Part shown: positions 13,400 to 61,190 of the stretch, one piece after another
Position numbering within the stretch: the first letter of the stretch is position 1
Layout of the letters: the number at the start of each line of letters is the position of its first letter
Assembly (NCBI GenBank): GCA_002163155.1
Contig: MAAO01000011.1
Span: forward strand, 1-64,000
Reading direction: 5' to 3'
DNA length: 64,000 bases
Source: Halobacteriovorax marinus
GTDB taxonomy: Bacteria > Bdellovibrionota > Bacteriovoracia > Bacteriovoracales > Bacteriovoracaceae
Notes under the pieces: generated by a model
The model's database searches: none
Told to the model about the DNA's origin: nothing
The model's input: only the letters and a program-made list of their open reading frames with translations
Translations under genes and position numbers: made by a program

Positions 13400-14497
13400 T
13401 TACTCAACAACTTCAGCTAAAACTGAAATACCTTCGCGCTCAAGAATAGCTTTTGCTTCTGGTGTCACTCCCCTTAAGAAGGCCACAGTGGGAAAGAAGG
13501 TCTCTTCTAGACCTAGAAAACGAATAATCTGAATGGTCTCTAATTGTTGATCAAAAATCGTCTTATTACGACCGCGACCAGCACTCACTTCACTGCGAGA
13601 TATTGGTTTCTTATAATTTTTGACTTCAACCACAGAGTAGCGATTATGCTTTTTTACGATGAGATCAAATTCCTTTGTTTCAAGAAAAGTTTTAGCTCTT
13701 CTTAACACTTCATCGTTAGAAAGATTATCAAGATTTTTAAAAACTTTTGGATATTTTTGCATTAATTGAGGAATTTGTTCAACACTTAGCCTTGCTAGTT
13801 TTTGTTCAAGTGCTGTAGCAAAAATATCATTCACAACTTGTGACTTAGGATTTAATAAATTCTGCCTTACAAGATAGACTCCTTGCGCTTGCAAGTTTCC
13901 AAGGCGAAGTAGAACATCTAACTCTCCTAAGTGTCCCTTGTAATTTGTCCAGCCAAGAGAATCAAAGATTCTCCTTTGTTCAGGTTTTCTAAGGTCAAAG
14001 TTTGTATTGAATAGATCTCGCATAGACTCATCACTTCTAAATGCCGAAATTTTATTTAACTTAGAATCTCCAAGGTCAATATGGGCGGCGCTCATTTCTA
14101 AGTAGTGATCCAACTCCTCACTATGGCCTTTTCCACTTCTTATATGAGAGGCCAGGTCTTGGTGAGCAGTCACAAAGAAATCCAGTGCATCTTTAACTTT
14201 TGGACTTTGACCACCATGGGAATCTTGATAGATTTTAGTGAATTTATCCATCGAAGGTCTCTTATTTAACATTTCACTTCTAAAATTTTCAAAGTTTGGA
14301 ATCTTTGTGGCGAGAGAGTTCTCTCCCGTTCTAATGGGTCCACTCTTAGTGGGATTGGCCGCAATGAAAGCGCGCGCTGAATCTCTACAGTCTCTTAGAT
14401 TTGCAGAACTGGCCGGATCCCGATGACTATAGTCATGAATACTAGTGGCACAAGAGCTGAGAAGGAGAAAACTTAGAACTAAAAAGATTTTATTCAT
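13400..14497 (-). CDS. Lipoprotein with a PD-(D/E)XK nuclease-like C-terminal domain
   Basis: A 365-residue protein. It has a lipoprotein signal peptide with lipobox LLSSC (Cys16), a helical region (about 30-180), then a C-terminal domain matching the PD-(D/E)XK nuclease plan: helix GHLGELDVLLRLG (Glu192), then EFDLIV (Asp278), VVEVKNYKKP (Glu291, Lys293) and a helix with FDQQLETIQI. The order E...D...ExK is that of YraN/Holliday-resolvase-type members. A membrane-anchored nuclease outside the cytoplasm would be unusual and would suit degradation of foreign or prey DNA (inference). The N-terminal half resembles the lipoprotein at 47084. A GCCGATAA box with TAAA 12 bp away lies upstream. Confidence 0.65.
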   Translation of the reverse strand: MNKIFLVLSFLLLSSCATSIHDYSHRDPASSANLRDCRDSARAFIAANPTKSGPIRTGENSLATKIPNFENFRSEMLNKRPSMDKFTKIYQDSHGGQSPKVKDALDFFVTAHQDLASHIRSGKGHSEELDHYLEMSAAHIDLGDSKLNKISAFRSDESMRDLFNTNFDLRKPEQRRIFDSLGWTNYKGHLGELDVLLRLGNLQAQGVYLVRQNLLNPKSQVVNDIFATALEQKLARLSVEQIPQLMQKYPKVFKNLDNLSNDEVLRRAKTFLETKEFDLIVKKHNRYSVVEVKNYKKPISRSEVSAGRGRNKTIFDQQLETIQIIRFLGLEETFFPTVAFLRGVTPEAKAILEREGISVLAEVVE

Positions 14498-14549: not shown

Positions 14550-14563
14550 TGAGGGAAATATAC

Positions 14564-14592
14564 TCTTCTCCGACAAGATTTATCGGAGAAGA
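14564..14592 (-). terminator. Terminator hairpin of the ptsGHI operon
   Basis: TCTTCTCCGA (14564-14573) pairs over 10 bp with TCGGAGAAGA (14583-14592), eight bases after the ptsI stop codon at 14600. The following U-tract is weak. Confidence 0.65.
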
Positions 14593-14599
14593 AAATGCT

Positions 14600-16285
14600 T
14601 TAGAATGAAAATATTTTGAGAACTTCTTCTTTGTCTTTAGCCGCAAGTACGCTTGGAACTAATTTATGACATTCGTCTTTATTGGCGATAATAATATTCT
14701 TTCTCACAGAGAGAATACTTCCAGAAGTTACACTGAAAGAATCAAGACCAAGTCCAATCAGAAGTTCAGTTAACTGAAGCTCCGAGGCCATAGATCCACA
14801 CATTCCTACAGGAATTCCTGCTTTATTCGCCCCTTCAATAGTCATATTAATCAATCTAATGACTGAAGGATCAAAGTAAGAGTAGAGATTTGATAATTTA
14901 TCATTCATACGATCTACAGCAATTGTGTATTGAATAAGATCGTTAGTTCCAATACTAAAGAAGTCCACTTCTTCAGCAAGAACATCTGACATAACTGCAG
15001 CTGCAGGAATTTCAATCATGATTCCAATTTTAATATCTGGATCAAAAGAGATATTCTCTGCATGTAACTCTTTCTTACAAGTTTCAAGAATTTCTTTCGC
15101 TTTGATTATTTCATTATGAGTAGCGATCATAGGAAACATAATTTTTAAGTTTCCATAATCAGACGCTCTAAGAATTGCTCTTAATTGCGGCTTGAAGAGA
15201 TCTTCTCTATCCAAACAAATTCTAATGGCACGGTATCCAAGAAAGGGATTATCTTCTGGGTCAAGACCTAGGTAATCAACTTCCTTATCTCCACCAATAT
15301 CAAGAGTCCTAATCGTTACAGGACGATCACCCATGGCGAGTGCAATTTTCTTATAGAATTCAAATTGACTCTCTTCACTTGGAGCAGTCTTGTGCTCCAT
15401 AAAGAGAAATTCAGTTCTAAGTAATCCAATACCTTCTCCGCCATTCTTTAAAACAGCTTCCGTATCTTCTACAGAAGAAATATTGGCAAGTACACTTAAC
15501 TGATGTCCATCTTCAGTAACTGACTCTGCATCGATATACTTAAAAAGCATTTCTTTATACTTAGTATCATCTTCAATGTGACGATCCCATTTCTCTAACA
15601 AATCATTAGAAGGATCTAAGAAGATCTCAGCTTTTAATCCATCAATGGCAACGACACTGGCATTAGCAGCACTTTCTAAAATTCCCCTAGCACCAACAAT
15701 GGCTGGAATTTCAAGAGTACGTGCAATAATCGCCGTATGAGAAGTGATGCCTCCGACTTCAGTAATGAAAGCTCTCACTTTATCTTTATCTATTTGAGCT
15801 GTCTGAGAAGGAGTTATATCTTTAGCAATAAGAACAACATCATTATCTAGTTGTCTTAGGCTTGAAGAATTTATATTTAAAGCTTTAGTGAGGAAACGGC
15901 TGGCCACATCTTTAATGTCCAGTGCTCTCTCTTTAAAGTAATCATCATCAAGGGCCTCAAATTTTGCCATGAAACTAAGAGCAGTTTCTTTAACGGCACA
16001 GCTTAAAACAAGAGACTTCTCATTAATGAGTTTTACGATATCTTTCTTAAAAGAAGGATCCGCAGCGAGCATTGAATGGGCCTCAAAAATTGCCGTCTGA
16101 TCTTCAGTCGTGGCATTTTTAGACAACTCTTCAAGTTCACTGACAACAATTTTACTGATTCTCTCAAATTCACTTAACTCATGATCGATATCCGTAGATG
16201 TTTTTGAAACCACTTTTTCAAAAACATCTTCAAGGATAACAATTTTTCCGTAAGCAAATCCAGGTGACGCGCTTTTACCGATCAT
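14600..16285 (-). CDS. ptsI: Phosphotransferase system enzyme I
   Basis: A 561-residue enzyme I, the usual length. It takes phosphate from phosphoenolpyruvate and passes it to HPr in the cytoplasm. The phospho-acceptor is His183 in GGITSHTAIIARTLEIPA. The C-terminal PEP-binding barrel shows GGEGIGLLRTEFLFM, TIRTLDIGGDK, SIGTNDLIQYT and the active-site Cys in GMCGSMAS. It starts two bases after the ptsH stop codon and is last in the ptsG-ptsH-ptsI order, giving the whole phosphorelay in one operon. Confidence 0.97.
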   Translation of the reverse strand: MIGKSASPGFAYGKIVILEDVFEKVVSKTSTDIDHELSEFERISKIVVSELEELSKNATTEDQTAIFEAHSMLAADPSFKKDIVKLINEKSLVLSCAVKETALSFMAKFEALDDDYFKERALDIKDVASRFLTKALNINSSSLRQLDNDVVLIAKDITPSQTAQIDKDKVRAFITEVGGITSHTAIIARTLEIPAIVGARGILESAANASVVAIDGLKAEIFLDPSNDLLEKWDRHIEDDTKYKEMLFKYIDAESVTEDGHQLSVLANISSVEDTEAVLKNGGEGIGLLRTEFLFMEHKTAPSEESQFEFYKKIALAMGDRPVTIRTLDIGGDKEVDYLGLDPEDNPFLGYRAIRICLDREDLFKPQLRAILRASDYGNLKIMFPMIATHNEIIKAKEILETCKKELHAENISFDPDIKIGIMIEIPAAAVMSDVLAEEVDFFSIGTNDLIQYTIAVDRMNDKLSNLYSYFDPSVIRLINMTIEGANKAGIPVGMCGSMASELQLTELLIGLGLDSFSVTSGSILSVRKNIIIANKDECHKLVPSVLAAKDKEEVLKIFSF

Positions 16286-37801: not shown

Positions 37802-38719
37802 CTAGCTTGCTTTCTTTATTTCTTTTTCATTAAGAGCTAATCTATTAACTCGAACCTCTTCTAACAATTCTTCCATGACCTTTCGAATCATAGGAAGTTC
37901 TTTTTCAGCACTAGATTTATCTCTCTCAGCATGTAAGTGGTACCAAAGAGTTTGCAGAACAACTTCCACTTTTTCGAAAGTATTTTCCCTTGTGATTTCT
38001 ATGGGAGAAACTGTGTTCAAAGTGGTTAAAAGAATAGAAAAGAAAATACCTGCAATAGAAGTTTTCATGGCAAAGGTCACATTCACAACGAATTGTGATA
38101 ACGTCTTTCCCGATTCTTCAAGATTCGCAAAGTCCATTTTGGCAATTTCAGGCAAGGCCATGGAAATCCCAATGAAAGTCCCAAACACTCCTAGAATAAT
38201 AAACATTGTAGGTAATACATCTAAGACTCTGGTCACTCCATCAATTGGAATACGATTAAAGAGTTTCGACCAATTGTCATCCTCACTCATCACTCGCTCA
38301 GTAAGCTGAGAAAAGTCTGGCTGAACATGAGAAGTAAAGATTCCAGCTTCACTTTGAATATTGGCGATTAAACCGTGCTTACTCCCAACGTACTCTTTTA
38401 GTGTAAGACCAACCATACGATCATCAGTTGTCTCGTTTGAGCTCTTCGAAAAGCCCTTTCTTAAGTTTCTCTCAGGTAGTTTTTGATTCACTCGTCCTAG
38501 AATGTTATTTAAAGAATCAGAGACATTTTCGATACGTGCCCCCTTTTCTTTATCTGATGAAAGAGTGGAGGCCAGCTCTCTGGTGAAATGAGAGAAGTAA
38601 GCTTCATCTCTTTTACTGTGGTTGTAGGACATCCATCTAAGTGAGAGTGCAATAGCGACAACTACCAACATAACCTCAATTAAATATTGACCAAAAAATA
38701 CAAGGATTAATTCAATCAT
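37802..38719 (-). CDS. MotA/TolQ/ExbB-like (ZorA-like) stator membrane protein
   Basis: A 305-residue inner-membrane protein. Transmembrane helix 1 is at residues 3-28. A cytoplasmic helical region of about 130 residues follows. Then come two helices with the family pattern VLPTMFIILGVFGTFIGIS and FAMKTSIAGIFFSILLTTL. The order matches MotA/TolQ/ExbB subunits of ion-driven motors, and ZorA of the Zorya defence system. Its start overlaps the stop of the MotB-like gene by four bases, so the two are made together. ZorA's very long cytoplasmic tail is absent here; in this system the coiled coil is on the partner. Confidence 0.85.
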   Translation of the reverse strand: MIELILVFFGQYLIEVMLVVVAIALSLRWMSYNHSKRDEAYFSHFTRELASTLSSDKEKGARIENVSDSLNNILGRVNQKLPERNLRKGFSKSSNETTDDRMVGLTLKEYVGSKHGLIANIQSEAGIFTSHVQPDFSQLTERVMSEDDNWSKLFNRIPIDGVTRVLDVLPTMFIILGVFGTFIGISMALPEIAKMDFANLEESGKTLSQFVVNVTFAMKTSIAGIFFSILLTTLNTVSPIEITRENTFEKVEVVLQTLWYHLHAERDKSSAEKELPMIRKVMEELLEEVRVNRLALNEKEIKKAS

Positions 38720-41700
38720 AGTCCACCTTCTTGAAAATTTAATATCTTTTCTAAAACTTTAGGATTATCTTTTAAGGTAAAGCTTAATTCAACTCGCTGA
38801 CTAAGATCACAACTATAGTTTCCACAGTCTTGATCTGTATTCCCCTCTCTGATGGAGGCAATACTTCTTCCAGCAGGTCTCACTGGCATCATGTATCCAT
38901 GGCCAATTGAGCGGGTAATTTTTCTCATGTGCATTTTATTTTTAAATTCTTTTGTTTTTCTACTGTAAATAAAATTACTGATGGCGGTAGCACGCCTCGC
39001 TGATAAATTAAGGTTATAATTATAGGCCTCGGGATCATTCTTAAGTGGGTCAGAGTACTTCTTCATAAAACTTGGAGAAGAATGTCCCTCAACATTGAAA
39101 CTTGAGATTTTCTCTTTAATTTTTTCATCCCCAAAGAGAACTTCTGAATAAAGAGGAATAATTTGCGAGAGTTTCTCTTTGGCAACTTTACTCAATTTAG
39201 AACTATTCGTTTCAAAGAGTAAGTTCTTGTCCATTAATAGAGTCACAGTTCCAGTTTTTGGATCTACCATGGCCCTTACATTAGCTTCTTTGAATTTCTT
39301 TGATAATTTCTTAGCGATATTGGCCCTAAGATTCTTCTTCTCATCTTTAACCTTTTCACCAATGAGAACTATTCTATTCTTTAAATCTTTATTTTGTAAT
39401 TCTTGTTTGTCTTTTATAGTTACACAATTAGTTCTTGCGACTTTCTCTTCACTTAAACTCTTATTTAAAATACTTTGATCACTCTGACAGCCTTGAAAAG
39501 AATTACCTAGAGATGCGACTTGGTTGCTTAGACCATTATTCCTCTCTCTTTCGTTCTCTAAGACCTTGTGACTAGAAGCTAATTGATTATTCTTATTTTC
39601 AAGTTCATTATCTAATTTTCTTATTTCACCATCAGAATAGATCACTCGCTGAGTTGCATCGATGATGTCCTTCTCTAATTTACCCAATTTATTATTGGCC
39701 TTATTTAAGTTGTAACTAAGGCCACCATTTTGCCCCAATAAGTCTCCAATCTTTGCATTAGCAAGGCCTAGTTTATCAGAGAGACCTTGTTTCTCTCCGG
39801 CCATTCCTTTTAACTTTCCATCGAGTTTACCAATTTGATCCTTAAGACCACCATTCTCGCCCTGAAGTTTCCCAACTTTTCCATTAGCTAGACCTAGCTT
39901 ATCGGAGAGACCTTTGTTCTTTCCGGCCATGCCTTTGAGCTTACCGTCTAGATTTCCGATTTTGTCTTTTAGTCCACCGTTTTCACCCAATAGCTTTCCA
40001 ACTTTACCATTAGCTAATCCAAGCTTATCAGAGAGGCCCTTATTCTTTCCGGCCATGCCTTTGAGTTTACCGTCGAGTTTTCCGATTTTGTCCTTAAGGC
40101 CTCCATTCTCACCTAGGAGACTTCCTATCTTACTATCGGCCGATCCTAATTTATCAGAGAGACCTTGGTTTTTTCCGGCCATACCTTTTAGTTTGCCGTC
40201 CAGTTTGCCTATTTTATCTTTAAGCCCACCGTTTTCACCCTGGAGTTTTCCTACTTTACTATCTGCCTGTCCCAGTTTGTCAGAGAGGCCCTTGTTCTTA
40301 GCAGTCATGCCCTTGAGTTTTCCGTCTAGCTTTCCAATCTTGTCTTTCAAACCACCATTTTCCCCCTGAAGGTTTCCTACTTTACTATCAGCTTGAGCCA
40401 GCTTAGCAGAGAGTCCCTGATTCTTAGAGGCCATACCTGTTAAGTTTCCATCGAGTTTACCTATGGCATCTTTAAGGCCACCATTCTCCTTCATAAGTCT
40501 TTTGATTTCACTATTTGAGTTTTGCAGCTGTGAGACTCTCTTAGCCTGAAGAGACTTTAGCTCACCAATTTTAGAATTATGCTCATTAGTCATTTTTTGT
40601 ACTTCATTTTTCGAATCTGAAGTTACTTTGGCAAGAGCTTGCCCCTGCTCTTTTTGAAGTTTTGCAATAGTACCGGATTGTGTGGTCTTAAGATTTTTAA
40701 TTACACTATCTTGCCCTGCTATTGCACTTTGTTGCTGTTTTTTTAGATCTTCTATAATTTTCTTAAATTTCTTATTCTGAATACTAAGCTCTTGCTGTTT
40801 AGCTAAGGCCTGTGACTTAACTAAATTATCCGATTCTAATTTTACTTGGGCCACTTGCCTCTTCGCAATTTGAATCTGCTTAGAACTCTCTTTTTGGATC
40901 TCCTGAACCATTCTTTCAGTCTGTTGTGACTTTTTCGCTGAAACCTTCTGGGCTTCACTCATGATATGTTTGTGTTCAATATTATTTTGCTTTATTTGGT
41001 TTTCATACTTCGCAGACTGTTCCTGATTTCTTACCTTTGCAACTTGTTCAGATTTCATCATAGCAAGTTGAACTGACTTAAGTTTTTCACTTGAAACACT
41101 TTGATTTTGTTTTAATTGACTTAAGTATTGTTGTTTTTGATCCTTTATATTTTTTACTTGCCTTGCTTCTAAGTTGATTTGTTCTTTTTTCATTTTCTTA
41201 ATTTCATTTTCTCTAACTAGAATTTCTTCTTTCTTTTCTTGTTTTAGGTTGGCCATCTCAACTTTAAGTTGTTTTTCAATTTTTTTACTATTCTGCTCTT
41301 CTTTCTTTAAGGCCGCTTCAAACTTTATGATTTCTTTTCTCTTCCCTTCGATATCACTATTCACCTTGGCAATCTCTTGAATTTTACTTTCTAGATTTGC
41401 ATCCTTATTCTTTATATCTTTCTTTAGCTGATCATTTTTAGATGATTTAATTGCTAAGTCTCTTTTCTTCTTCTGTAGGTTATCTCTTACCTTAGCTAGA
41501 ATGGCCTCTTTCTTGGCCTGCTCCTTAACCATCTCTTCCATAACTTCTCTGTTATTTTCTAATCCCTTTACCAACTGATTTAATTCGATAACCTTACTAT
41601 TTATAATATTTTTAAACTCACCTACTTTGTTAATAGACTTCTCTATCTTCTCAACTCTCTTCTGAGCTTCTAATTGAGCTTTCTTTGGAATAGAACCTTC

Positions 41701-41877
41701 AAGTTCTTGTTCATGGGATTTCTTCTCTGCAATTTTCTCCATGGTAGTAACGCCAACTTTAATCATCGCAAAGACAAACATTGTTAAGAAAATAATTGCA
41801 ACAGTAGTAAACAAATCGGAATAAGCACTCCAGACTTGTCCATCATCACTCTTCTTCTTTTTCTTCCTTCTTGCCAT
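38716..41877 (-). CDS. Giant MotB/ZorB-like protein: proton-path helix, coiled coil, 42-residue repeats, OmpA domain
   Basis: 1053 residues from ATG 41877. GGAG lies six bases upstream; the GTG at 41889 has no such support. A Lys-rich cytoplasmic start precedes a single membrane helix with VWSAYSDLFTTVAIIFLTMF; Asp21 lies where MotB/ZorB carry the ion-binding Asp. About 410 residues of Lys/Gln/Glu-rich coiled coil follow. Next come six near-identical 42-residue repeats (about residues 464-715) with core ENGGLKDKIGKLDGKLKGM and GLSDKLGLANGKVGKL, then more coil. A C-terminal OmpA/MotB peptidoglycan-binding domain (about 890-1053) shows FNVEGHSSPSF and LSARRATAISNFIY. First gene of an operon with a MotA-like and a cNMP-binding protein. 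MotB and ZorB are usually under 350 residues. Confidence 0.85.
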   Translation of the reverse strand: MARRKKKKKSDDGQVWSAYSDLFTTVAIIFLTMFVFAMIKVGVTTMEKIAEKKSHEQELEGSIPKKAQLEAQKRVEKIEKSINKVGEFKNIINSKVIELNQLVKGLENNREVMEEMVKEQAKKEAILAKVRDNLQKKKRDLAIKSSKNDQLKKDIKNKDANLESKIQEIAKVNSDIEGKRKEIIKFEAALKKEEQNSKKIEKQLKVEMANLKQEKKEEILVRENEIKKMKKEQINLEARQVKNIKDQKQQYLSQLKQNQSVSSEKLKSVQLAMMKSEQVAKVRNQEQSAKYENQIKQNNIEHKHIMSEAQKVSAKKSQQTERMVQEIQKESSKQIQIAKRQVAQVKLESDNLVKSQALAKQQELSIQNKKFKKIIEDLKKQQQSAIAGQDSVIKNLKTTQSGTIAKLQKEQGQALAKVTSDSKNEVQKMTNEHNSKIGELKSLQAKRVSQLQNSNSEIKRLMKENGGLKDAIGKLDGNLTGMASKNQGLSAKLAQADSKVGNLQGENGGLKDKIGKLDGKLKGMTAKNKGLSDKLGQADSKVGKLQGENGGLKDKIGKLDGKLKGMAGKNQGLSDKLGSADSKIGSLLGENGGLKDKIGKLDGKLKGMAGKNKGLSDKLGLANGKVGKLLGENGGLKDKIGNLDGKLKGMAGKNKGLSDKLGLANGKVGKLQGENGGLKDQIGKLDGKLKGMAGEKQGLSDKLGLANAKIGDLLGQNGGLSYNLNKANNKLGKLEKDIIDATQRVIYSDGEIRKLDNELENKNNQLASSHKVLENERERNNGLSNQVASLGNSFQGCQSDQSILNKSLSEEKVARTNCVTIKDKQELQNKDLKNRIVLIGEKVKDEKKNLRANIAKKLSKKFKEANVRAMVDPKTGTVTLLMDKNLLFETNSSKLSKVAKEKLSQIIPLYSEVLFGDEKIKEKISSFNVEGHSSPSFMKKYSDPLKNDPEAYNYNLNLSARRATAISNFIYSRKTKEFKNKMHMRKITRSIGHGYMMPVRPAGRSIASIREGNTDQDCGNYSCDLSQRVELSFTLKDNPKVLEKILNFQEGGL
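39733..40488 (-). repeat. Six tandem 126-bp repeats inside the MotB-like gene
   Basis: Six copies of 42 codons, with a seventh diverged partial copy just to the left (from 39732). Forty-two residues equal six heptads. The protein copies are nearly identical while many third codon positions differ between copies, so the repeats look old and held by protein-level selection rather than recently duplicated. Confidence 0.9.
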
Positions 41878-41942
41878 AGAGTACTCCACTTACACCAAGT
41901 AAGATTTTGTCGATTACCATTATCTGCCATATCAGTGTTCGA

Positions 41943-47083: not shown

Positions 47084-47701
47084 CTACTCAACTTCAGGAA
47101 AGATGTCGGGACGTAATTTATGAAGGAGATTCTTCTCTAGAGTTGTATCACTCATAAAGATTTCTAGCATCATATCGGCCTGAACACTTCCTCCTTTGAG
47201 TTTTCCATTTCTCATCGCCTTAATTGTATTTGCCGCGTGATGAATAATACTTTCTGTTTTCAAATCACTTCCTATTTCATGAAGTTTAATTAAATTCTTA
47301 GAAACTTCATTGAAAAAGTATACGACTTCTTTATCATCAGTCTCGATCACCTCAGCAAAGAGTCTACCAAGATTATCCGGGACATTTCTATACTCTTTAG
47401 CAAATGTAGTCGTCTCTATACTAAGTAGCGCCCTGGTATGATCATTAATATCTCCAGAAAGAGCAAGACGACTTAGAGCGATCCCTCTTTCTGCCACCGC
47501 ATCTAATTCGTTGAATTTTAATATATTATGATTTGAATTTATGAAACCTTTAGCTAAATCAAAACAACTCTGATCTGAAAGAGAGCTAACTCCAGAAATT
47601 GATCTTCTATTAGATTGATTAGGAACACTGGTGGCACAAGATACAAGAACTACTGAGATGAGTAGTTTTAGTATAAAGGAATCAGCATTATTTATATTCA
47701 T
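47084..47701 (-). CDS. Lipoprotein related to the N-terminal half of the nuclease-like lipoprotein
   Basis: A 205-residue protein with lipobox LVSC (Cys22) followed by ATSVPNQSNRR. The mature sequence is all-helical. Its first part (SCFDLAKGFINSN) and middle (VVYFFNEVSKNLIKLHEIG) resemble the N-terminal half of the protein at 13400 (RDCRDSARAFIAANP; ALDFFVTAHQDLASHI), while the nuclease domain is missing. An ACCGATAA box with TAAA at 12 bp precedes it, the same promoter geometry as its relative. Function unknown. Confidence 0.6.
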   Translation of the reverse strand: MNINNADSFILKLLISVVLVSCATSVPNQSNRRSISGVSSLSDQSCFDLAKGFINSNHNILKFNELDAVAERGIALSRLALSGDINDHTRALLSIETTTFAKEYRNVPDNLGRLFAEVIETDDKEVVYFFNEVSKNLIKLHEIGSDLKTESIIHHAANTIKAMRNGKLKGGSVQADMMLEIFMSDTTLEKNLLHKLRPDIFPEVE

Positions 47702-59636: not shown

Positions 59637-61190
59637 TTAATTGTGAAAATACCGGTGGAATATGGGTCGAGTTTCTTTCAGTTCCTTCTTAACATTATAG
59701 GGCACTTTTCTACGCCCGCGATACTTTCTGGCCTCTCTACTAAGGGCGATAAATTTTATGTATCTCTTGTAATCATTCTCTTTAAAGTCTTGTAAAACCT
59801 CATGCATTTCAATGGGACTTAATGTCCTCTTAGCAATCGCCTGAGCATCACTTAATTTGTTATAGAGCTTCTCTCCTACCAGATCTAAGACCAAGAAGAG
59901 CTTGAGTTGCCGTGCCTTCATATTGAGAGGAAATTTATCCTCCAACATTTTCTTCACAAAGGGAGTCCTTCGCATAAGCCATGAGAAACGGCTCTTTACG
60001 ATTATTCCAGCTGGAGCAAAGAGGCGATAATTGTCAACTTCAATCCACTCAAAGATTTTTGTGAGCACTACATCTTTAAAACGATTATCCCTCATTTTCT
60101 TTGGATTTCTCCACTCGGCCACGATACTAAAGCTAGGATCAAATTGGATATCTCCGGGGCCAAAAGTATCAGAGGATGAAATATTTGATGCATTTACCTT
60201 GAGACCTAGATCCTTAAGAAAAGAGAGTAAACCTTTTTCAAAATTTGTCTTATAGAGAGGAAGATCTAGCTTTTTACTGTACAACTTCTTGGCTGCATTT
60301 TTAAAAGCATGATAAATAATTTCAGCGGAAAATAAATTCTTTGAATCCTTGTAATTCATTTCAAAATCGTAGGCAATATTCTTCTTCTTCAATTGCCTTG
60401 CTCTCACCTTTTGGTACATGGACTTTGCGGCCTCATGGGCGAGTTTAGAGTCGCTGTGACGAAGCACAACAGAACGTACATTTTTCTGGTCGATATACAC
60501 CTGCATGGGCGCCGTTACCGCTCCTACCTCTGTCAGTGACTCAATTGTGTGAAGATCATTGGACTCGTCTCTATACACCAGAGAGAGATGAGAAAATTGT
60601 GACTCATTCTCACCAATTCTTGCAATGGCAGCACTTGAATAACCATGACCTCTAGAGAGAATAATGTCCCCTGATTTTAAATCTGCTTTGCTTGAAAATT
60701 CAAAAACGGGATTCACAAGAAATTGACTTCCAGAACCTGCAAAAGTGACAAAGTCCATAGACTTTAAATAACCCAGTCTAAAGAACTTTATTTCGATCAT
60801 ATAATCTTCAACATATCTAAGCGCCCTCACTATATCTTTAATAGAATGAAGGCAGGCAACACCAATAGCAGAAACAACTTTCAGCCCTTTCATTTTTTCT
60901 TTGATTTCTAGTCTAGTTCTAAAGGATTTTTTAATAATTTGATCAATTTTACCATCAGTAATTAGCGCTGAATCAATATGCTCATCACTAAGAGACAAGA
61001 GTCTCTTACCATAATTTGATAATTTTGCTGAACAGAGCTTTGTATCAACTATACCAGCAACAACAGATGAGCTGATTTCACCTATGAGTTTATTTAGGTT
61101 GTAATCAGTAGATGAAGGAGTTCGACTTCCTCCCCCATGGGAGCAAGAAAATAGAAACAACCCCAGCAAAACAATCAAGTATTTTCTCAT
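59637..61190 (-). CDS. Lipoprotein with permuted papain (YiiX-like) domain, Cys replaced by Ser
   Basis: A 517-residue protein with lipobox LFSC (Cys16). An N-terminal helical part (30-150) precedes a domain resembling the YiiX/YebB permuted NlpC/P60 amidases: LKSGDIILSRG (172-181), QFSHLSLVY with His201, then TIESLTEVG, AYDFEMNY and NLFSAEIIYHAF. In active members that last stretch reads YCSE; here the Cys position is Ser288. The protein may be an inactive binding relative or use Ser. The C-terminal 200 residues are unassigned and basic. Upstream is a GCCGAAAA box (61221-61228). Confidence 0.6.
   Translation of the reverse strand: MRKYLIVLLGLFLFSCSHGGGSRTPSSTDYNLNKLIGEISSSVVAGIVDTKLCSAKLSNYGKRLLSLSDEHIDSALITDGKIDQIIKKSFRTRLEIKEKMKGLKVVSAIGVACLHSIKDIVRALRYVEDYMIEIKFFRLGYLKSMDFVTFAGSGSQFLVNPVFEFSSKADLKSGDIILSRGHGYSSAAIARIGENESQFSHLSLVYRDESNDLHTIESLTEVGAVTAPMQVYIDQKNVRSVVLRHSDSKLAHEAAKSMYQKVRARQLKKKNIAYDFEMNYKDSKNLFSAEIIYHAFKNAAKKLYSKKLDLPLYKTNFEKGLLSFLKDLGLKVNASNISSSDTFGPGDIQFDPSFSIVAEWRNPKKMRDNRFKDVVLTKIFEWIEVDNYRLFAPAGIIVKSRFSWLMRRTPFVKKMLEDKFPLNMKARQLKLFLVLDLVGEKLYNKLSDAQAIAKRTLSPIEMHEVLQDFKENDYKRYIKFIALSREARKYRGRRKVPYNVKKELKETRPIFHRYFHN

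Follow-up and report, generated by a model that had tools for sequence, protein, structure and literature searches.

In the 64,000-nucleotide stretch of DNA analysed here (the window, lying in a genome of 4.5 Mb), a gene on the minus strand had been described by an earlier note as encoding a lipoprotein with a PD-(D/E)XK nuclease core. The locus raises the question of what a nuclease of this kind would act on once it has left the cytoplasm. In our reading, which the evidence favours by a modest degree, the protein is an exported, membrane-anchored nuclease and one of a set of leader-tagged proteins that act on prey. The features discussed below are collected in Table 1.

Table 1. Positions of the nuclease gene, its predicted parts and related features in the window.
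Feature	Positions	Strand	Basis
Whole gene, predicted exported PD-(D/E)XK nuclease, 365 aa	13400..14497	-	ORF, motif positions, family comparison
Predicted signal peptide and lipobox LSSC, Cys16, residues 1-16	14450..14497	-	Sequence; N-terminal hydropathy
Shared leader RDPASSANLRDCRDSARAFI, R26 and C37, residues 26-45	14363..14422	-	Leader alignments, leave-one-out tests
Predicted helical domain, lying between leader and core, residues 62-180	13958..14314	-	AlphaFold, pLDDT mostly 86-95
Predicted PD-(D/E)XK catalytic domain, residues 187-365	13403..13939	-	Model pLDDT, fold matches
Three-helix insertion between core strands 1 and 2, residues 217-274	13676..13849	-	Secondary structure of the model
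Glu192 codon, core helix 1	13922..13924	-	Invariant in 29/29
Asp278 codon, predicted metal ligand	13664..13666	-	Invariant in 29/29
Glu291-Val-Lys293 codons, ExK motif	13619..13627	-	E291 and K293 invariant in 29/29
Gln317 codon, trailing helix	13547..13549	-	Kept in 25/29
Terminator-like hairpin between upstream gene 14600-16285 and nuclease gene	14563..14593	-	Consensus match only
Second leader-bearing lipoprotein of the window, 205 aa, unrelated body	47084..47701	-	Leave-one-out 20.1 bits, genome-wide E 0.0018

The gene and its predicted nuclease fold

The reading frame begins with ATG. The gene upstream of it is a PTS enzyme I by sequence, and the hairpin between the two (stem of 14 pairs, loop of 3 nt) suggests that the nuclease gene may be a separate transcription unit. 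Among 15 loci, no conserved adjacent gene or operon partner of the nuclease was found outside the genus and its close relatives, and no defence genes adjoined it; there was also no immunity-like gene among its neighbours at these 15 loci, so the arrangement of a polymorphic toxin with its immunity gene is not seen here. Within the genus, an exported protein of 317-319 aa (SANIW.SIPFIRG; L025-L028, four genomes) is often encoded near the nuclease; it has no Pfam match (e.g., L027:3617-4576) and does not adjoin the nuclease in the window. Elsewhere in the window, positions 38716-41889 (minus strand) encode a protein of 1057 aa in which a near-identical repeat (GLSDKLG...VGKLQGENGGLKDKIGKLDGKLKGM) occurs many times, and which adjoins a proton-channel-like gene (37802-38719) in a region of strong GC and AT skew.

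The lipobox Cys16, E192 (GHLGELD), D278 (EFDLIV) and E291/K293 (VVEVKNYK) all lie where the earlier note had read them, and the Gln of its trailing helix is Q317 in DQQLE. AlphaFold, run with seven sequences, gave a pLDDT of 79.7 for the whole nuclease and 84.9 for residues 176-365. The modelled core starts with a helix (187-198, carrying E192) and a strand (202-208), continues after the three-helix insertion (217-274) with two strands at 276-283 (D278) and 286-293 (E291/K293 at its end), and closes with a helix at 314-327 (Q317, E320) and a strand at 334-344. This is the canonical PD-(D/E)XK element order. The structure prediction and fold comparison suggested as a check thus placed E192, D278 and E291/K293 on the canonical core elements, and gave no sign of a fold that would keep these residues apart.

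The top structural match of the catalytic domain was AF1548 (1y88; Z 8.2, 105 residues, 2.8 A), followed by Card1 (Z 7.9), EndoMS (7.6 and 7.5), Cdn1 (7.2), XisH (7.1) and Can2 (6.9 and 6.3); restriction enzymes such as FokI and BstEII ranked lower. The best structural matches are all PD-(D/E)XK proteins, and nearly all rows of the comparison belong to this superfamily despite the modest Z scores. The alpha-beta-beta-beta-alpha-beta core was found both in the predicted models and in the fold matches, with Z modest at 6 to 8.2, and Foldseek alone gave a best E of 0.002 for the catalytic domain. Residues 62-180 matched only generic helical bundles such as talin. At the level of sequence profiles, NERD (PF08378) was the best Pfam match, reached by 9 of 13 members (best 5e-5); the window protein itself scored 20.9 bits, below the Pfam gathering cut-off of 22.1, and is thus not a formal NERD member. 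Other profile matches (SfsA, UPF0102, CARF_PDDEXK and LmuA) point to the same superfamily. Endonuclease I (PF04231) was absent from the Pfam matches of the window protein up to E 10, and no sequence match to a solved nuclease was found.

Conservation follows the predicted active site. Among 13 aligned relatives of the order, the invariant residues are C37, G188, G191, E192, K275, E276, D278, E291, K293, K312, Q317 and E320. Across the phylum, E192, E276, D278, E291 and K293 are present in all 29 family members compared (drawn from families f1, f22 and f26), and Q317 in 25 of them. The agreement of the nuclease motifs with the superfamily pattern is far beyond chance, and that proteins with as little as ~20% identity share an unchanged predicted active site argues strongly for a working enzyme; judged from these sequences, the nuclease is very probably catalytically active. 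Relatives are present in 16 of 129 genomes of the order, and the nuclease is therefore not a core predation gene. A profile search placed the nuclease family (families f1, f10, f22 and f26) in 30 of 368 genomes of the phylum, a count in which some matches are confined to the N-terminus or to a portion of the domain. No relatives were found in viral contigs. Relatives also occur in longer frames with extra N-terminal regions (L015/L037 and L077; 710 and 832 aa).

Export and lipidation were judged by simple rules for lipobox and hydropathy, not by SignalP. The N-terminal hydropathy of the window nuclease reaches 3.19, compared with at most 2.00 elsewhere in the protein, and a hydrophobic N-terminal segment is found in nearly every family member (the exceptions include L071, an ORF near a contig end). 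The window protein has a lipoprotein signal by these rules (LSSC16), as do 8 of 29 members in all; those that lack a lipobox mostly carry an ordinary signal peptide or an anchor-like hydrophobic segment instead. Of the earlier reading as an exported lipoprotein, the export signal generalises to nearly all members and the lipobox does not. We concluded that the conserved family property is predicted export, and that lipidation is not conserved. The signal peptide would remove the nuclease from the cytoplasm, and the organism's own chromosome could therefore be spared without an immunity protein. Taken together, sequence and model describe a PD-(D/E)XK superfamily nuclease that is predicted to be exported and membrane-anchored and is probably metal-dependent.

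A leader shared with other exported proteins

The nuclease-family profile also matched the N-terminal ends of further exported proteins, which are longer and have no nuclease domain. In an alignment of these N-termini, the lipobox Cys, one Arg and a second Cys were invariant in 16 sequences; with the signal peptide removed and lipobox-less nuclease orthologs added, the Arg and the second Cys were still invariant in 16. The leader pattern consists of R-x-[PIVL]-[AS]-[SA], a short spacer, C, and then a helix with hydrophobic spacing. The window nuclease has R-x-P-A-S ... C followed by a hydrophobic helix, and it carries R-x-x-[AS]...C after an export signal, the pattern used for membership in the set. 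Nuclease orthologs that lack a lipobox still have the leader (HRLPASEAPSGSC, MRGPASISTEGC and KRSLASVNDEGC). The earlier note had not described it.

For a leave-one-out test, leader-only profiles were built with each protein group withheld and searched against 400 kb from the window's genome, with E values scaled genome-wide. The withheld leaders gave E values of 3e-7 (a 580-aa protein), 3e-6 (a GT4 protein), 4.5e-5, 1.5e-4, 4.6e-4, 7e-4, 1.1e-3, 1.8e-3 (the second window lipoprotein) and 0.014; background reached 10 to 14 bits at best. The leaders of L088, L091, L093 and L094 were at background, and the window nuclease's own leader was weak when the nuclease family was withheld (E 2), with a close ortholog at 2.6e-6. 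With a model made from the nuclease leaders and three others, 32-33 of 35 further leaders scored no lower than the best background (8.8 bits). Because these 35 had been preselected by a leader-containing profile, the figure serves to check consistency and does not count as independent.

In random stretches of this and related genomes, the leader core occurred in 1 of 37 lipoproteins and the full motif in 0 of 37 (an earlier pass that included the window gave a biased 3 of 21). We therefore concluded that the leader marks a small set, and rejected it as a general lipoprotein feature. A phylum-wide leader is not supported either: matches outside the family lie mostly in short frames, those in frames of at least 120 aa being 6 of 21 outside the family vs. 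25 of 28 inside (Fisher p 1.7e-5). Leader matches in 123 of 125 genomes were discounted, as many of them cover the generic signal peptide only. As defined by these alignments and profiles, the leader is shared by otherwise unrelated, predicted exported proteins of Bacteriovoracales.

Of the leader proteins, about half match no Pfam family. In the second leader-bearing lipoprotein of the window, the first 57 residues resemble the nuclease N-terminus (BLASTP E 5e-5) and the body belongs to no clear family. A leader-bearing lipoprotein of the same genome (L068, G000:C1:476753 onward) carries a glycosyltransferase of GT4/GT1 type (Pfam 5e-22), a normally cytosolic enzyme, and another genome of the genus has an ortholog (L207). 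The nuclease and this GT4 protein are the only leader bearers of the window's genome with clear enzymatic families; several other bodies belong to no clear family, with sub-threshold kinase-like and methyltransferase-like matches among them. In other genomes of the order, the leader precedes class-III aminotransferases (three proteins), amidoligases (two), phospholipase D-like proteins (two, HKD motifs intact), a circularly permuted ATP-grasp and a Fic protein with an intact motif (HPFVDGNGR); a further leader-bearing lipoprotein, L231:372-1997 (plus strand), combines an ADP-ribosyltransferase with Fic (HPFLDGNGR intact). Fic gene counts across the phylum were uninformative, Fic being common. 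A GH32-like glycosidase, which could act outside cells, also bears the leader in other genomes.

Most of the recognisable leader bodies are enzymes whose usual substrates are cytosolic. None of the leader-set enzyme families occurred in ten ordinary lipoproteins of the window's genome; their domains were L,D-transpeptidase (YkuD), gamma-glutamyltranspeptidase (GGT), solute-binding, redoxin, DsbA-like and phosphatase, and four had no match. This contrast is one of small numbers, with ten controls. A candidate third leader bearer of the window, a 517-aa lipoprotein at 59637-61190 (minus strand), was rejected: RTPSS is present and SCSHGGGSRTPSS near its start forms part of the leader pattern, its profile score is at background, and it has no Pfam family.

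Predicted action on prey and alternative roles

The named relatives of the nuclease come from metagenome-assembled genomes of Bacteriovoracaceae and Bacteriovoracales. Bacteriovoracales includes the predators Bacteriovorax and Halobacteriovorax, and from the lineage of the relatives we infer that the window's organism is predatory too. An enzyme that depends on ATP, NAD or a sugar nucleotide would not be expected to find its substrate in a predator's own periplasm. Since most recognisable enzymes of the leader set need cytosolic substrates, the set most plausibly acts on the contents of another cell, and given the Bacteriovoracales lineage this other cell would be prey. The shared leader favours a predicted role of the nuclease on other cells; the tagged set is, we infer, used on other cells, most likely prey, and the tag could be a marker of prey-directed proteins.

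In the proposed mechanism, the signal peptide would export the nuclease from the cytoplasm, the lipid or anchor would retain it at the envelope, the leader would direct its sorting or release, and the nuclease domain would cut prey nucleic acid. Cleavage at the leader, vesicles and direct contact in the bdelloplast are conceivable ways into the prey cytoplasm; no secretion-system link or delivery machinery for the leader set was identified. For the separate parts, the leader stands an even chance of being a sorting or delivery signal, and we are evenly divided on whether prey is the target. More tentatively, and with somewhat less than even confidence, the 20-residue R-x-P-A-S ... C leader could be an undescribed sorting, release or translocation signal that sends a set of enzymes into prey, namely this nuclease and the Fic, ADP-ribosyltransferase, glycosyltransferase, ATP-grasp, amidoligase, aminotransferase and phospholipase D-like proteins.

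The nuclease might instead be a surface or periplasmic DNase that scavenges environmental DNA or shapes the organism's own biofilm and has no particular part in attacking prey, with the leader as no more than a lineage-specific sorting or anchoring motif of some exported proteins. Its patchy distribution (16 of 129 genomes), the effect of exported Bdellovibrio nucleases on biofilms (PMC3593177) and the post-lipobox sorting motifs of Bacteroidota (PMC5080379) are consistent with such a role; we nevertheless consider it unlikely, as it does not explain why the same leader is found on Fic, ADP-ribosyltransferase, ATP-grasp and GT4 proteins, which have no substrates outside cells. An envelope nuclease that cuts phage or plasmid DNA during its passage through the periplasm is a good deal less probable still. 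The membrane-anchored location and weak PADLOC matches to defence-associated PD-(D/E)XK domains would suit that function, but the matches reflect the common fold, the 15 loci hold no defence genes alongside, viral contigs hold no relatives, and the shared leader is again left unexplained. Equally improbable is a polymorphic-type toxin for killing competitors or kin: the modular N-terminus with varied enzymatic bodies resembles one, yet neither an immunity gene beside the nuclease nor a neighbour conserved outside the genus was found, and Pfam scans gave no known toxin-trafficking domain. Finally, some PD-(D/E)XK superfamily members are inactive, and the fold could have lost catalysis and bind nucleic acid or protein only, which is very improbable with every predicted catalytic position invariant in 29 of 29 members.

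Comparison with known nucleases and export signals

AF1548, EndoMS, Card1/Can2/Cdn1 and XisH have the same core fold and the same E...D...ExK order as the window nuclease. To our knowledge these proteins are cytoplasmic; the window nuclease adds a signal peptide, a leader, a helical N-terminal domain and the three-helix insertion.

Exported nucleases are also found in a related predator: Bdellovibrio Bd0934, Bd3507, Bd1244 and Bd1934 are assigned to the endonuclease I superfamily. They are expressed one after another as predation proceeds, and predation continued after deletion of those tested (PMC3593177, PMC7925074). The window nuclease has another fold than these endonuclease I-type enzymes, and so adds one not described among exported predator nucleases in the searchable literature. 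The genome of the window (G000) also has nine or ten endonuclease I family genes (e.g., L223-L227), an unusually large DNase set.

We found no shared signal described in the accessible literature, which discusses secreted hydrolases of predators, and no description of the present leader in the searchable literature, which is not proof of novelty. A common leader on exported enzymes of cytosolic type would offer a way into the question of how invasive predators bring their enzymes into prey, as it would predict which proteins are delivered and which residues are key. We regard the leader set as the novel part of this work, the nuclease itself being of a known kind.

The lipoprotein export motif of Bacteroidota is acidic. 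Like the present leader, it is a short motif soon after the lipobox Cys, and it sends lipoproteins to the surface (PMC5080379); unlike it, the present leader is R-x-P-A-S...C and is retained also in orthologs without a lipobox. The set likewise resembles modular effector and polymorphic toxin repertoires, in which one N-terminal module is joined to many bodies (Fic, ART, nuclease, glycosyltransferase), and differs from these repertoires in its Sec or lipoprotein signal at the N-terminus and in the absence of an immunity gene beside the nuclease.
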